This document shows positions 23,234 through 32,818 of a stretch of 33,511 nucleotides of DNA, one piece after another (position 1 is the first letter of the stretch; each line of letters opens with the position of its first letter). The position numbers and the translations under genes are program-made. The notes below the pieces were generated by a model. That model had not been told where the DNA came from and ran no database searches. It saw only the letters and a list, made by a program, of their open reading frames with translations. Source of the DNA: Deltaproteobacteria bacterium (GTDB lineage: Bacteria > Desulfobacterota > Desulfobulbia > Desulfobulbales > BM004); assembly GCA_024639555.1 (NCBI GenBank), contig JAHEID010000007.1, forward strand, positions 1 to 33,511, in the 5' to 3' direction.

Positions 23234-24037
23234 TCATTTATGGTCGAATATGGAAAATCTGTCAAGTGCATTCAGGCTATCCCACAAATCACTTTCACTG
23301 CGGGGCTCCAGGGTAATAATAGGCTTAATATTCCTTGATTTCAGGTAGGAAAAAAGGCCCGGAAAATCAAAGTCGCCTTTGCCCACAGGCAAATGATCGT
23401 CCCGGATGCCATGGTTGTCATGCAGGTGAAGTTGCCCGAGCCACTGCCCCAAAGTAGCAAGCCATTCATGCAATGGCGCGTGGGCAAAAGCCAGAAGGTG
23501 CCCCGCATCCAGGCAGAAAAGGGCTAAAGGAGAATCGAGGGCTTCAAGAATTATCTTGTGGGTGCGGGGGCCTTCCTCGTAAGTATTTTCAAACATGATC
23601 GGAGTGGAATATTGTTCAGCCACACCGAGCATTTCCTGCCATGTTTCCAGCGAGGTGGCAAGCCACTGGTCCTGATCATAACTGTGGACGCAATCCAGGT
23701 AGCCCAGATGGCATACCACAGAACGCGGTTTGAATATTTCTATAAGATCGAAGCAGCGTCTCAGTTTGTCCCTTGCAGCCTGAAGAACATATTGGTCCCG
23801 GGCTCCAGGCAGCATATCATGGAAGGGTGCATGCAGAGTGCAGCTCAACCCCTTGTCATTTAAAAATTTCGACCTATCCTGAAAGTCCTGGCGGCTGAAG
23901 GTGTAAAGTGCATCACCGTCAAGACCGATCTCAGGGTTAATGCTGTATCGTGAAACCAGCTGTTCGTATTTGTCAAACTCAGCAAAGGGGATGTTAACAA
24001 AACAACTTGCAATTATGTGTGAAAGATTATGTGCCAT
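23234..24037 (-). CDS. TIM-barrel sugar phosphate isomerase/epimerase family protein
   Basis: This 267-residue protein belongs to the xylose isomerase-like/AP-endonuclease-2 barrel family. Likely metal ligands are the Glu in IMFENTYEEG, the Asp and His in CLDAGHLLAF, the His residues in LHLHDNHGIRDDHLPVGKGDFDF (about 200-222) and the Glu in ITLEPR. The HDNHGxxDxHLPVGxG motif is typical of the sugar epimerase branch rather than DNA repair endonuclease IV. The substrate is not predictable. It lies upstream of dnaE on the same strand and may be cotranscribed with it. Confidence 0.8.
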   Translation of the reverse strand: MAHNLSHIIASCFVNIPFAEFDKYEQLVSRYSINPEIGLDGDALYTFSRQDFQDRSKFLNDKGLSCTLHAPFHDMLPGARDQYVLQAARDKLRRCFDLIEIFKPRSVVCHLGYLDCVHSYDQDQWLATSLETWQEMLGVAEQYSTPIMFENTYEEGPRTHKIILEALDSPLALFCLDAGHLLAFAHAPLHEWLATLGQWLGQLHLHDNHGIRDDHLPVGKGDFDFPGLFSYLKSRNIKPIITLEPRSESDLWDSLNALDRFSIFDHK

Positions 24038-24655
24038 GATCAGTCAGGTATGCTACTGCGATTATGACACAAAGACGAGTTGAATTTTAGTGAATGAGAA
24101 TATTCAGGAAAGTAATAAGAACTTTTTCTTCACCGGTTCTTCATTAATCATTGGTTAAGTATTTTCGTCTGGGATAATTTGTTCTGTGGGCACTTATGGG
24201 GGATTTCTACAGACTTCATACGCCACCACCCCGAACCGGGGTCAGTACGGGGTGGTGAAGCATTCTACTCTCGTTTTCAAGAAGGCCAAACGGGGGGGAG
24301 GCCTTTTAGAAAACGTATGCGGAGAAAAGAACTTATAATCTTTTTACCATAGAGATACGGTCTTGAGAATGCGGCAAATTGTCGCACCTGGATTCATGTG
24401 AAGCGGAACAGCGCATCCATTCCTCGCTGCTCGACACGAGGTTAAGGGACGAATTTAATACAATGAGCATCCTTTGCAAAGAAGATTCCCTGCCGGTGAC
24501 GCTGCGCTGAGCAAGAGACCGCGGGGAGCTTCAATATTTTTAAAAAACCGGAGCATTTGACAATTGTCCCCGGTACTGATAATTACAATCTGGGTCAAAG
24601 CGTTTTCAACGTAGAGCACGAGGCAGGATGCCCTCTCCGGGAGAAAAACAGAGTG
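24038..24655. other. Intergenic region rich in strong inverted repeats
   Basis: About 620 bases between the divergent TIM-barrel gene and the RegB-like kinase. The centre holds the structured RNA candidate listed separately. TTGACA at 24557-24562 is a consensus -35 box, but only weak -10 sequences follow (TAATTA at 17 bases, GATAAT at 15). It supports the kinase starting at 24656 rather than at the TTG at 24557. The remainder (24330-24540) shows no family-like coding frame. Confidence 0.5.
24217..24319. ncRNA. Candidate structured RNA: three-way junction of three helices
   Basis: Three nested helices are visible. P1 pairs CATACG (24217-24222) with CGTATG (24314-24319). P2 pairs CACCACCCCG (24224-24233) with CGGGGTGGTG (24248-24257), ten perfect pairs. 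P3 pairs 24272-24287 with 24300-24315 (CGTTTTCAAGAAGGCC side), with one mismatch and one G-U; its outermost two pairs compete with P1. Inside P2, CCCCG-AAC-CGGGG (24229-24241) can form an alternative hairpin. It may be a leader with a switch, a small RNA, or a relic of a mobile element. It matches no RNA family I recognise, and the strand cannot be fixed. Confidence 0.45.
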
Positions 24656-26032
24656 ATGCAGAAAAAATATCCAATATCGGTCTGGCAGGCAAATGAAGCA
24701 AATGCAAATATAGCGTTCTCATGGCTTTTGCTTCTTCGCTGGGGGGCCGTACTCTGCCAGGCTATCCTTATTCTTGCTGCCTACAGTTATCTGGAAATTG
24801 CTATCCCGATCATCTTTGTTTCGGCAATTATAATATTCGAAGCTGTAAGCAATCTTTTTTTTTCATACCTGCACAGGCTCAATAAAGTTATCCCTGAATG
24901 GCTTTTCGGCCTCGTGATGTTCCTTGATATTATTCTTCTCACGGCGCTTCTCTACTATACCGGTGGACCGATGAACCCCTTTACCTTTCTGTACCTGGTG
25001 CACATCGTCCTCGGCGCAGTATTGATGCATCCCAATTGGTCCTGGAGCCTGACGGTTTTTACAGTATTGTGTTACGCTTCCTTCTTTATGGTTGACCCGG
25101 AGCTCCTGGGTGACTTGCCGCTTATGCTGCCCGGGGGGTTTATAGGTGGCCCGGAAGTTGATGAAACCTGTCATCCGGCACTTGCAGAGTATGCATTGCT
25201 GTCTGACCATATGAAGCTGCACCTCAAGGGCATGCTCCTGGCCTTTGCAATCAGCGCATTTTTCATAGTTTTCTTTGTGGGCCGTATCCAGAAGGCACTT
25301 GAGGAGCACCAGCAAACACTTGTCAGCCTTGAGGAGGAAAGAGCCAGGAGCGAAAAACTGGCCTCACTTGCAACTTTGTCTGCAGGGGCAGCCCATGAGT
25401 TTTCCACGCCACTATCTACAATTGCCGTTGCCGCAGGTGAAATGCTGCATCAGTTAAAAGATGGAAAGATCGATCAGGGGCTCATTGATGACGCGCTGCT
25501 TATAAAAGACCAGGTCAGGGCCTGCAAGGATATTTTATACCAGATGGCGGCTGATGCAGGAAAACACCTGGGTGAGGCACTGGGAAAATACTCTGTCGAG
25601 CATGTCGTGCAACATATTCTCAACGAGTTTTCTGCAGAAGATCAAGCCAGAATAAGCGTCGAGAATGAAGCTGCTGCAATTTCCATACTGGTTCCATTGC
25701 GCTCACTGGTGCGCACTTTAAAGGGTCTGCTGAAAAATGGCATTGAAGCTTCACTGCCACCATCCCAGGTATTTCTTAGATGTTATTATGATGCAGACTT
25801 TTTATATTTTCAGGTATCAGATCAAGGGCCGGGCATGGATGAAGAAACGAGAAGCAGGGCCACTGAACCATTTTTTACGACAAAGGAACAGGGCAAGGGT
25901 TTGGGCCTGGGCCTCTTTCTGGCGCGGAACGTGGCCGAACAGTTTGGGGGCGGGTTGGCAATTTCTTCAGAAGTATCGGCAGGGACCTCGGTAACAATAC
26001 GTTTTGCCCTGGATCATATCCGCATTGCGTAA
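24656..26032 (+). CDS. regB: Redox-sensing histidine kinase of the RegB/PrrB family
   Basis: This 458-residue membrane kinase has about six helices in its first 215 residues. The periplasm-near GGPMNPF motif at 103-109 is the quinone-sensing signature of RegB/PrrB/ActS kinases, followed by LYLVHIVLGAVL. The H-box reads AAHEFSTPLSTI with phosphoacceptor H247. C290 in RACKDIL lies where the redox-active Cys of Rhodobacter RegB (Cys265) lies, 43 residues after the His instead of 40. The ATPase domain has DQGPGMDEE and GKGLGLGLFLARN. An in-frame TTG at 24557 overlaps a -35-like box and is unlikely to be used. The partner regulator follows 89 bases downstream. Expected role: global control of energy metabolism by quinone redox state. 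Confidence 0.87.
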   Translation: MQKKYPISVWQANEANANIAFSWLLLLRWGAVLCQAILILAAYSYLEIAIPIIFVSAIIIFEAVSNLFFSYLHRLNKVIPEWLFGLVMFLDIILLTALLYYTGGPMNPFTFLYLVHIVLGAVLMHPNWSWSLTVFTVLCYASFFMVDPELLGDLPLMLPGGFIGGPEVDETCHPALAEYALLSDHMKLHLKGMLLAFAISAFFIVFFVGRIQKALEEHQQTLVSLEEERARSEKLASLATLSAGAAHEFSTPLSTIAVAAGEMLHQLKDGKIDQGLIDDALLIKDQVRACKDILYQMAADAGKHLGEALGKYSVEHVVQHILNEFSAEDQARISVENEAAAISILVPLRSLVRTLKGLLKNGIEASLPPSQVFLRCYYDADFLYFQVSDQGPGMDEETRSRATEPFFTTKEQGKGLGLGLFLARNVAEQFGGGLAISSEVSAGTSVTIRFALDHIRIA

Positions 26033-26121
26033 CCCGTATTTCTCACGGACACTACATGTGAAATATACGGGCTGGTAAATTTTTAAGTCGGCTTGAAAAC
26101 AAGGTCGGGGAGGGCTTTTTT

Positions 26122-26655
26122 ATGCAAAGCATCATACTGGTTGATGATGAAGAGCAATTCAGGGGACGCCTGGCAAGGGCTTTTAGCAACAGGGGGTATA
26201 CGGTTTTCGAGGCAGAAGATGTCGATGGGGCATTGGAAAAGATAAAAGAGAACAAGCCGGACTGGGCCCTGGTGGATTTGAAGATGCCGGGTAAAAGCGG
26301 CCTTGATCTGATCAGGGAGGCCAAGGAGTTTCTGCCCTTTCTTAAAATTGTAGTGCTTACAGGCTATGGAAGTATTGCTACAGCAACTGAGGCCGTTAAA
26401 CTCGGAGCCCATTCTTACCTGCCCAAACCGGCGGATGTTGACGACATTCTCAATTCTTTTGAAAAGGATTCTGATCTTCCAGGTGTTCCTGAACACAATG
26501 AGTTTGAGGCGCCGTCGCTGGCAAGAGCCGAATGGGAACATATTCAAAGGGTCTTAAACGACTGCGACAACAACATTACAGCCGCAGCCCATAAGCTTGG
26601 CATTCATAGAAGAACCCTGCAAAGAAAACTCTATAAGTACGCCCCCAAAAAGTAA
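26122..26655 (+). CDS. regA: Response regulator of the RegA/PrrA family
   Basis: This 177-residue regulator has a receiver domain (D8-D9 acidic pocket, phosphoacceptor D52, T80, K102) and a C-terminal Fis-type helix-turn-helix (about 137-175). The PSLARAEWEHIQRVLNDC and LGIHRRTLQRKL segments are hallmarks of RegA/PrrA, which binds DNA with this domain without an AAA+ module. GGGGAGGG precedes the ATG at good spacing. Together with the upstream RegB-like kinase it forms a complete redox two-component pair. The usual neighbour senC/prrC (a SCO1-like copper protein) is absent here. Confidence 0.9.
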   Translation: MQSIILVDDEEQFRGRLARAFSNRGYTVFEAEDVDGALEKIKENKPDWALVDLKMPGKSGLDLIREAKEFLPFLKIVVLTGYGSIATATEAVKLGAHSYLPKPADVDDILNSFEKDSDLPGVPEHNEFEAPSLARAEWEHIQRVLNDCDNNITAAAHKLGIHRRTLQRKLYKYAPKK

Positions 26656-27354: not shown

Positions 27355-29535
27355 ATGTCCCGTCTATTTGCCGACTATATCAAGAAAGCAAAGAATATCC
27401 TTGAAGACAACTGGTTGGGTTCGTCCACAAAACCTGCACCTTCGTTGTATCCTCATCAGTGGAATTGGGACTCTGCCTTTATCTCCATAGGTCTATCTCA
27501 TTATAATACCGGCAGGGCTATCCAAGAGATAGAGACGCTCTTTGAAGCCCAATGGCTTAATGGCATGGTGCCGCAAATAGTCTTCAATCATGATGCCCTC
27601 GGGCATTATTTTCCCGAGCCCGACTTCTGGCAGACTGAAAGATCCCCAAATGCACCGAGAAACCATTTATCGTCAGGCATTACCATGCCCCCGGTGCATG
27701 CCATTGCAGTGGAAAAAATTTACGTAAATGCCAAGAAACCCAGAACCACAATACCTTTTCTTAAACGCATTTATCCAAAGTTGCTCAATGCCCATACCTA
27801 CCTTTACCGTGAAAGAGATCCCGGTAAAGAAGGACTTGTTTATATTCGGCATCCCTGGGAGTCGGGTATCGACAACTCGCCCACATGGGACGCACCTCTA
27901 AAACGTATAACGCTAGACAAGGCAAAACTGCCGTATTATGAACGCAAAGACCTGGGACACGGTGTAAACCCCCAGATGCGTCCCAGTGATAAAGAGTATG
28001 ACCGGTATGTCTATCTTGTGAATCTTTTTCGGCAAAACGACTATGACGAGGCCAGAATAAGACAGATATGCCCCTTTCTTATACAAGACCCGCTGTTTAA
28101 CGCTATTTTATGCAAGGCTAATGAATCTCTGGTTCGTATAGCAGAGGTCATTGGTGCAGACTCAAAACAACCTGAAAAGTGGGCAAAAAAGACCGCATCA
28201 ACCATTAAGGACAAGTTGTGGAACCTGAATCAAGATATATTCGGCGCTTATGATCTCGTTGCGGATACGTCCATTGATGTGGATACAGCTGCTGGCTTTT
28301 TGCCCCTTTATGCCGGTGCAGCCTCACAAGAGCAGGCCCGCAAGATTTACGAGAGACTTAACTCCGCCTCATTTTGTGCCCTGCACCAGGGAAACTGTTT
28401 TACCATTCCAAATTATGACACACGCAAGGAGGGATTTGAACGTTCAAACTATTGGCGTGGTCCGGTTTGGATCAACATCAACTGGATGCTTGCTGAGGGA
28501 CTGAGACGCTATGGTTATACCCTAAAGGCAGATTCCCTCCAGAAAGATCTGCTACAGCTCCCCATACGATTCGGGTTTTATGAGTATTTTGATTCTTTTG
28601 ACGGCAGAGGATATGGAACGGACAACTTCAGCTGGACAGCGGCGCTCTTCATTGACCTGGTTGAAGATTTTTATTCTTCGCAGAAAAAAGCCCATTTGAG
28701 TCTAGCAAAGCAAGTTAACTCATTAATATCAAGCGGTATTATATTAAACGATGGAAATGAAATGACAGAGGTTTCTCTTGACAGCCTGAGCCATGAACTT
28801 ATGCGCAACATGAGGCAGCTCAGAAACAGATTTTATGACACTAAGCGTGGCCGTGTCGATTATCATGCTCTTAAGGAATCAGAAGAGTTTCGAAATTACA
28901 GACTTCTTTCCAACAGCCTCCAGAAGTTTGATCCTTCCAGATTATTAGGTCGCAAAGAAAAAATCGCCTTTTGGGTTAACCTTTATAATACTATTGTGGT
29001 TGATGGTATTGCGAGATTGTCTATCGAGCAATCGGTAAAAGAGGTTGCCGGCTTTTTCAGCTCCGTAAAGTACCAAATCGGTGAATACCTTTACTCCCCG
29101 GATGACATTGAGCATGGAATTCTTCGGGGAAATGTCCGGCCCTGGTTCCGCCCATTCAAGCAGTTCGGCGCCTTTGATAATAGAAAAAAATGGGTTGTGA
29201 CTCCTGTGGACCCGCGCATACACTTTGCTCTGGTCTGCGGCTCTCGGTCCTGTGCACCCATTGATTACTATGAATCGCAGAAAATTTATGATCAACTCGA
29301 TGAAGCTGCAAAAAGTTTTGTTAATTCTTCTGAGGTAGTCATTCTGCCTGAGAAAGGAAAACTCATGCTTTCTGAAATATTCCGTTGGTATGGAGATGAT
29401 TTTGGAGGAATATCCGGGGTCATTGATTTTATTTTTGATTACCTGGCAGACAGTAACGCCCGAGAATTTCTGGAAAAGTCGAGGCAACATATCCAGTTTG
29501 AATATATTTATTATGACTGGAATCTGAACCGATGA
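27355..29535 (+). CDS. Fusion of a GH63/MGH1-like glycoside hydrolase and a DUF547 domain
   Basis: This 726-residue cytoplasmic protein (no signal peptide) joins two families. Residues about 1-445 resemble the (alpha/alpha)6-barrel GH63 group that includes mannosylglycerate hydrolase: YPHQWNWDSAFISIGL near the start, the acid D173 in WESGIDNSPTWD, NYWRGPVWININWM, the likely base E410 in GFYEYFDSFDG, and FSWTAALFIDL. Residues about 470-726 are DUF547: KIAFWVNLYNTIVVDG, EHGILRGN, DPRIHFALVCGSRSCAP (C628, C633), WYGDDFGG and the final YYDWNLNR. Both parts look complete, so the protein should be active on an alpha-linked sugar such as glucosyl- or mannosylglycerate or trehalose (inference). The ribosome binding site is weak. 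Confidence 0.83.
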   Translation: MSRLFADYIKKAKNILEDNWLGSSTKPAPSLYPHQWNWDSAFISIGLSHYNTGRAIQEIETLFEAQWLNGMVPQIVFNHDALGHYFPEPDFWQTERSPNAPRNHLSSGITMPPVHAIAVEKIYVNAKKPRTTIPFLKRIYPKLLNAHTYLYRERDPGKEGLVYIRHPWESGIDNSPTWDAPLKRITLDKAKLPYYERKDLGHGVNPQMRPSDKEYDRYVYLVNLFRQNDYDEARIRQICPFLIQDPLFNAILCKANESLVRIAEVIGADSKQPEKWAKKTASTIKDKLWNLNQDIFGAYDLVADTSIDVDTAAGFLPLYAGAASQEQARKIYERLNSASFCALHQGNCFTIPNYDTRKEGFERSNYWRGPVWININWMLAEGLRRYGYTLKADSLQKDLLQLPIRFGFYEYFDSFDGRGYGTDNFSWTAALFIDLVEDFYSSQKKAHLSLAKQVNSLISSGIILNDGNEMTEVSLDSLSHELMRNMRQLRNRFYDTKRGRVDYHALKESEEFRNYRLLSNSLQKFDPSRLLGRKEKIAFWVNLYNTIVVDGIARLSIEQSVKEVAGFFSSVKYQIGEYLYSPDDIEHGILRGNVRPWFRPFKQFGAFDNRKKWVVTPVDPRIHFALVCGSRSCAPIDYYESQKIYDQLDEAAKSFVNSSEVVILPEKGKLMLSEIFRWYGDDFGGISGVIDFIFDYLADSNAREFLEKSRQHIQFEYIYYDWNLNR

Positions 29536-30095: not shown

Positions 30096-30530
30096 ATGAG
30101 TGTTAAAGACAGGCTTCGTGATTTTGAGGAAGTCTGCAGGAAAGAAGGTCTAAAAATAACCCACCAGCGCCTTGAGATTTTCAGGGAACTGCTAAATTCC
30201 CACGATCATCCAACTGTTGAAAAGCTTTATCATCGACTCCGGCCAAAGCTCCCGACCATATCTCTTGACACGGTATACAGGACATTAACAACTTTGGAGC
30301 AGCATGGTCTTGTTGGCAGGGTTGAGACTGAAGAAAGTCAAGCCCGCTTTGAAGGAGAAATGGAAGAACATCATCATGCTATCTGCAAGAAATGCGGTAA
30401 GATTACCGATTTTTTTGGGGAAATTCCCTAATGTAGCGGCCTTGCCGGACGATATTTTGAAATGGGGAAAATATCTAAGAAAAGTATTGCGTTGCATGGT
30501 CTTTGCGGGCAATGTGCCCAGGAAAAATAA
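30096..30530 (+). pseudogene. perR: PerR-like Fur-family peroxide regulator with two compensating frameshifts
   Basis: This metal-dependent repressor has an N-terminal winged helix (KITHQRLEIFRELL, HPTVEKLYHRLRPKLP, TVYRTLTTLEQHGLV) and metal-site residues EEHHHAICKKCGKITDF; the Asp in ITDF corresponds to the PerR-type Asp104 that favours peroxide sensing. The frame stops at 30431, after 111 codons. Removing one base in the T run at 30410-30416 gives DFLGKFPNVAALPDD, then adding one base at GGGGAAAA (30464-30471) restores the first frame through KISKKSIALHGLCGQCAQEK to 30530: a normal 144-residue protein with the second CxxC zinc site. As sequenced, the product lacks that site and would probably be inactive. 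katG lies downstream. The RFE motif replaces RFD (Asp85). Confidence 0.85.
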
Positions 30531-30595
30531 ATCATTTTGGGAGAAGCGCTTTTTTGAGCATATATAAATATATTTACTAACAGCACAGAGAATAA

Positions 30596-32818
<2,223 letters not shown>

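Follow-up and report, generated by a model that had tools for sequence, protein, structure and literature searches.

A GH63-like hydrolase fused to a cytosolic DUF547 module, a probable glucosylglycerate-type enzyme of bacterial glucose release

One gene in the window (the whole 33,511-nucleotide stretch analyzed here, from a Desulfobulbales genome) joins a sugar hydrolase to a DUF547 module and raises the question of what DUF547 contributes to such an enzyme. The papers that we found assign no function, in their titles and abstracts, to DUF547 of bacteria or plants; most are plant transcript lists and none of these titles and abstracts describes the hydrolase fusion. The gene (Table 1) is one open frame with an ATG start and zero internal stops or frameshifts. 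Both halves scored far above their Pfam cut-offs: the MGH1-like_GH profile (PF22422) matched over positions 1–356 of 356 with 339 bits (cut-off, 27 bits; E = 5e-101), and DUF547 (PF04784) matched as a complete domain with 118.7 bits (cut-off, 27 bits; E = 2e-34). The ORF, the full profiles and the alignments bear out the initial annotation of two complete domains in one frame, with key residues D173 and E410 in the hydrolase and C628 and C633 in the CGSRSC motif of DUF547, all located as it had stated. The AF2 model of the full-length protein (pLDDT 88.8, pTM 0.86) was confident apart from the linker. By inspection only, the hydrolase fold begins at once at the N-terminus without a hydrophobic stretch, which supports the cytoplasmic location proposed earlier. 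A promoter and terminator scan around the gene gave no decisive signal.

Table 1. Features of the fusion gene and its flanking genes (window coordinates).
Feature	Position	Strand	Evidence or remark
GH63-like (MGH1-like) hydrolase–DUF547 fusion	27355..29535	+	726 aa, with stop
MGH1-like glycoside hydrolase domain, residues 32–428	27448..28638	+	Pfam PF22422, E 5.2e-101; fold match 4wva
D173, predicted general acid (MhGgH Asp182)	27871..27873	+	Alignment
E410, predicted general base (MhGgH Glu419)	28582..28584	+	Alignment
Low-confidence linker, residues 443–459	28681..28731	+	AF2 pLDDT < 50
DUF547 module, residues 462–726	28738..29532	+	PF04784, E 2e-34; AF2 of module alone
DUF547 Pfam core, residues 531–656	28945..29322	+	PF04784
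H587, first member of the invariant His2-Cys2 set	29113..29115	+	Conservation across DUF547 rows
Residues 592–618, with the insert of the cytosolic DUF547 subtype	29128..29208	+	H587–H623 spacing of 36
H623-x4-C628-x4-C633 (HFALVCGSRSC), other three His2-Cys2 members	29221..29253	+	Conservation
RegB/ActS-like histidine kinase and RegA/ActR-like response regulator, upstream	24557..26655	+	Both under curated cut-offs; context only
Fur/PerR-family regulator and catalase-peroxidase KatG, downstream	30096..32818	+	Context only

The nearest solved structures to the hydrolase half by sequence are the Thermus mannosylglycerate hydrolase (MgH) and the Mycolicibacterium hassiacum glucosylglycerate hydrolase (MhGgH). 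The AF2 model matched 4wva/4wvc and 5ohc with TMt values of 0.92–0.96 (0.95 at 42% identity for 4wva), confirming a GH63-type match to the (alpha/alpha)6 fold of MgH/GgH. Equivalents of D173 and E410 are present in all complete relatives, and the catalytic Asp and Glu plus 12 further substrate-contact positions are conserved in essentially all 75 relatives compared. We took the substrate contacts of MhGgH from the literature (PMC6608630) and mapped them by alignment onto the fusion protein, which retains 14 of the 16 positions, including the catalytic pair; equivalents of the glycerate-binding residues Y88, R216 and Y222 are also retained. The two replacements (Q115 by M111 and Q434 by F425) suggest that specificity may be shifted. 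Furthermore, the GgH equivalog model (NF047898) gave 391 bits, under its curated cut-off of 550, and we therefore call the hydrolase glucosylglycerate-type rather than GgH. Taken together, sequence and modeled fold support the prediction of a cytosolic GH63-like enzyme of the glycosylglycerate type.

Conservation in the DUF547 half centers on a predicted His2-Cys2 site. Among the bacterial rows fetched, the conserved positions are Y503, N542, N545, S560, H587, H623, C628, C633, F683 and W722. Of the 82 rows, 74 carry H587, H623 and the two CGSRSC cysteines; 7 rows of Persephonella-type fusions have lost the four residues together, and only in the Persephonella clade is the set missing as a whole. 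Internal identity in this group is 73% for the hydrolase halves and 44% for the DUF547 halves (82 and 73%, respectively, in the other Aquificota fusions). The joint loss of the four residues and the decay of DUF547 beside a conserved hydrolase suggest that the site behaves as one unit and that the hydrolase can be retained without it. The initial annotation had suggested that the cysteines perhaps transfer or cleave a sugar-linked acyl or peptide group. We found no support for this proposal: no finding indicates such chemistry, and the cysteines belong to the invariant His2-Cys2 set, of which no member is left in the Persephonella-type fusions. The spacing between H587 and H623 marks a cytosolic subtype, being 36 residues with a 23-residue insert versus 13–15 in exported DUF547. 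Modeled alone, the module (residues 462–726) reached a pLDDT of 91.7 and a pTM of 0.89. A sequence search of the PDB returned no relative of DUF547, and the best structural match (Foldseek on the model) had an E-value of 0.55 in a search that permuted matches could escape.

The neighbors of fusion genes in other genomes point to a fate for the glucose. When the proteins with this architecture were listed (about 50 loci), glucokinase, zwf and gnd emerged among their neighbors. Glucokinase lies 0–14 nt from the fusion gene at L033, L035, L043 and L051, and zwf (glucose-6-phosphate dehydrogenase) lies -19 to 66 nt away at L045, L057, L058, L062, L094 and L099, in all cases on the same strand; at L036, genes for transaldolase/glucose-6-phosphate isomerase, rpiA, rpe and gnd are upstream. 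Glucokinase or pentose-phosphate genes were near 18 of 51 fusions versus 1 of 21 unfused hydrolases (p 0.005). The source fusion gene adjoins neither glk nor zwf nor the GpgS operon, all of which are on other contigs; zwf and glk both scored over cut-off in this genome. The link to the pentose-phosphate pathway is not universal, because neither zwf nor glk was found in the Aquificota fusion genomes tested.

A module with a MerA-like FAD disulfide oxidoreductase and a TVP38 protein (12 loci each) was also near 18 of 51 fusions and 0 of 21 unfused hydrolases. This association is consistent with DUF547 as a redox- or metal-sensing regulator whose CX4C motif and two histidines would form a disulfide or zinc switch to tune glucose release and, hence, NADPH supply. 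The source gene has a RegBA-like redox two-component pair on one side and PerR-family/KatG genes on the other, which fits such a role, as does the joint loss of the four residues in Persephonella-type fusions, whose genomes lack both zwf and glk. However, the redox neighbors of the source locus are not conserved at other fusion loci and a single clade underlies the zwf correlation. Furthermore, the His2-Cys2 set is equally invariant in exported stand-alone DUF547 proteins that have no hydrolase, an invariance that fits a general chemistry better than a hydrolase switch. We regard the switch as conceivable, if rather unlikely.

Other features of these loci deserve mention. At L034, L047, L065, L099 and others, the module comprises the MerA-like FAD oxidoreductase, a TVP38-family membrane protein, TIGR04282/TIGR04283 'arsenosugar' glycosyltransferases, an ArsM-like methyltransferase, DUF3047 and an exported DUF547. 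In the window, the Fur/PerR-family gene upstream of katG (30096–30431) stops short, at 111 aa that cover 94 of 121 profile positions, and is perhaps truncated or frameshifted. The window also encodes a relative of CbiR-like cobamide-remodeling phosphodiesterases that scored under the curated cut-off (23234–24037) and a protein with an ethylbenzene-dehydrogenase-type heme-binding domain adjoining an EAL/GGDEF protein (1026–1907).

Genes for glucosylglycerate synthesis suggest the substrate. The source genome carries on contig C152 an operon for an MPGP-family phosphatase, a GpgS-like glycosyltransferase (299 bits), glycerate 2-kinase and a second GpgS-like transferase, with every equivalog model scoring below cut-off. 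Using the GpgS protein of the source genome as the query, we identified a relative in 38 of 45 fusion genomes (about 9 of them weak, E 1e-28 to 1e-50) versus 9 of 146 genomes taken chiefly from the source order, counts that are confounded by kinship and incomplete genomes; 7 fusion genomes had no GpgS relative. The NF010496 model was discarded as a GpgS marker, as it matched all 14 controls and was thus uninformative. Glycerate 2-kinase is present in 35 of the 45 fusion genomes, 17 of which carry it on the same contig and within ~5 kb of the GpgS relative. The operon in the source genome, the glucokinase and pentose-phosphate neighbors elsewhere and a second DUF547 fusion, to GH15, all support the proposed tie between DUF547 and sugar or compatible-solute metabolism.

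Mannosyl-3-phosphoglycerate synthase (MpgS) was found in 0 of 45 fusion genomes, whereas the Thermus control was positive, and we rejected MpgS-based synthesis of mannosylglycerate in these genomes. The hydrolase had been annotated as of the mannosylglycerate/trehalose type; the glycosylglycerate type stands, and the mannosylglycerate option is weakened by the lack of MpgS. At L126 (6357–7619), a second GpgS-like glycosyltransferase sits beside GpgS and glycerate 2-kinase, an arrangement kept in most fusion genomes looked at. This second transferase may be a one-step glucosylglycerate synthase or may produce a diglycosyl glycerate. A single-step glucosylglycerate synthase is known in Persephonella. 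A diglycosyl glycerate product would agree with another alpha-glycoside (mannosylglycerate, mannosylglucosylglycerate, trehalose or similar) as the substrate in place of glucosylglycerate, as would the differences from MhGgH at M111 and F425. For MhGgH, both glucosyl- and mannosylglycerate were used in assays and both were bound (PMC6608630). Against these points, MpgS is absent, glucokinase adjoining the fusion gene indicates glucose and the equivalents of the glycerate-binding residues are in place, making a different substrate unlikely.

The cytosolic DUF547 subtype with the 23-residue insert is not confined to these fusions. A new observation is that it also forms the C-terminus of TREH_N plus GH15 trehalase-like hydrolases in the order and phylum of the source genome (L110–L115, L225 and L226) and exists as free proteins of ~275 aa, two of them near a gnd or rpe-like gene (L219 and L224). 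The DUF547 modules from both types of fusion and the free proteins form one clade (support, 99) separate from exported DUF547. The surprise of the analysis is that one cytosolic DUF547 branch goes with two different glucose-releasing hydrolase families. No free cytosolic DUF547 adjoined a separate hydrolase gene in 10 loci. An apparent triple fusion in one genome (G209; 1554-aa open frame) was rejected as a GC-rich open frame, as the protein of its congener (G404) begins at the hydrolase (732 aa). Among 395 sampled genomes of the source phylum, the hydrolase occurs in 11 and this DUF547 subtype in 28. Its occurrence as a free protein argues against DUF547 as merely a structural or oligomerization appendage of the hydrolase, and so does the near invariance, outside the Persephonella clade, of the four His/Cys and several Asn, Tyr and Trp residues across 26–30% identity. 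We consider an appendage improbable, even though unfused hydrolases without DUF547 exist and the Persephonella-type fusions keep a decaying DUF547 next to a conserved hydrolase.

A single scan across 84,980 species genomes turned up about 50 fusion loci, with hosts in Nitrospirota, Desulfobacterota, Myxococcota-labeled MAGs and Aquificota, plus a Scalindua and an Aminicenantes. The two-domain protein recurs whole, at 45–80% identity, on about 50 independent contigs, four of which are chromosome records, and the fusion is therefore not a chance event. In the hydrolase tree, the fusions fall in one clade of 56 rows, 6 of which have no recognizable DUF547 (4 are truncated at a contig end); the unfused hydrolases outside this clade are cyanobacterial or from Calditrichota and Bacteroidota. 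As judged from these comparisons, the hydrolase–DUF547 architecture is old. The initial annotation had considered that it might prove common and already characterized; it is common, but none of the papers that we found describes it in its title or abstract. Although the source is only a MAG contig, in a genome of 233 contigs, the independent loci with their chromosome records, the single clade and a DUF547 end 84% identical in a same-genus genome (G001) rule out an assembly or annotation artefact almost completely.

We consider it probable that the fusion protein is a cytosolic glucosylglycerate-type hydrolase that supplies glucose to glucokinase and the oxidative pentose-phosphate pathway, and that DUF547 serves it as an accessory module. 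The GH63-like domain would work as an inverting alpha-glycosidase, with D173 as the acid and E410 as the base, as in MhGgH, and would split a stored glycosylglycerate, most likely glucosylglycerate, into glucose and glycerate. The glucose could then enter the oxidative pentose-phosphate pathway through glucokinase and glucose-6-phosphate dehydrogenase, and glycerate 2-kinase would recover the glycerate. DUF547 most likely brings in another site, dependent on a thiol or a metal (H587, H623, C628 and C633), that acts in or controls glucose release, and would not be required for the hydrolase itself. Our preference, a judgement held with slightly less than even confidence, is that DUF547 supplies a second active site for the step that releases glucose. 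The computed results are the domain content, the residue conservation, the history of the fusion, its genomic context and the co-loss of the four residues; the substrate, the direction of flux and everything on what DUF547 does are what we infer. More tentatively, DUF547 could be an unrecognized enzyme or sensor of unsolved fold with a His2-Cys2 site, its cytosolic branch having been joined to two hydrolase families to couple osmolyte breakdown to the pentose-phosphate pathway. The retention of the fusion over several phyla, the second hydrolase family and the glucokinase and zwf operons offer a concrete pathway and four residues for testing DUF547. They also lead to the prediction that many uncultured Nitrospirota and Desulfobacterota store glucosylglycerate as a solute and draw glucose from it.

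Comparison with known systems places the fusion protein among four relatives. Thermus thermophilus HB8 MgH (GH63; TTHA0978; PDB 2z07 and 4wva-c) is the nearest solved one (~42% identity, TMt 0.95). Like the fusion protein, it has a phenylalanine at the Q434 position; unlike it, it has a glutamine at the M111 position and no DUF547, and its genome, the control, is positive for MpgS. M. hassiacum GgH (PDB 5ohc and others; PMC6608630) shares the (alpha/alpha)6 fold, the acid and base and 12 other contacts at ~35% identity, but ends after the hydrolase and has Q115 and Q434 where the fusion protein has M and F. Exported stand-alone DUF547 (PF04784) has the His2-Cys2 and Asn/Tyr/Trp invariants in common with the fused module, but lacks the 23-residue insert and forms a separate clade. 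The GH15 trehalase-like proteins have a TREH_N plus GH15 region resembling TreH1 (NF041084) but under its cut-off, and the genes seen close by encode sucrose-phosphate synthase, debranching enzyme or glucose dehydrogenase and not GpgS. Yet in these proteins, too, a glucose-releasing hydrolase of (alpha/alpha)6 type has at its C-terminus the DUF547 subtype of the fusion protein.
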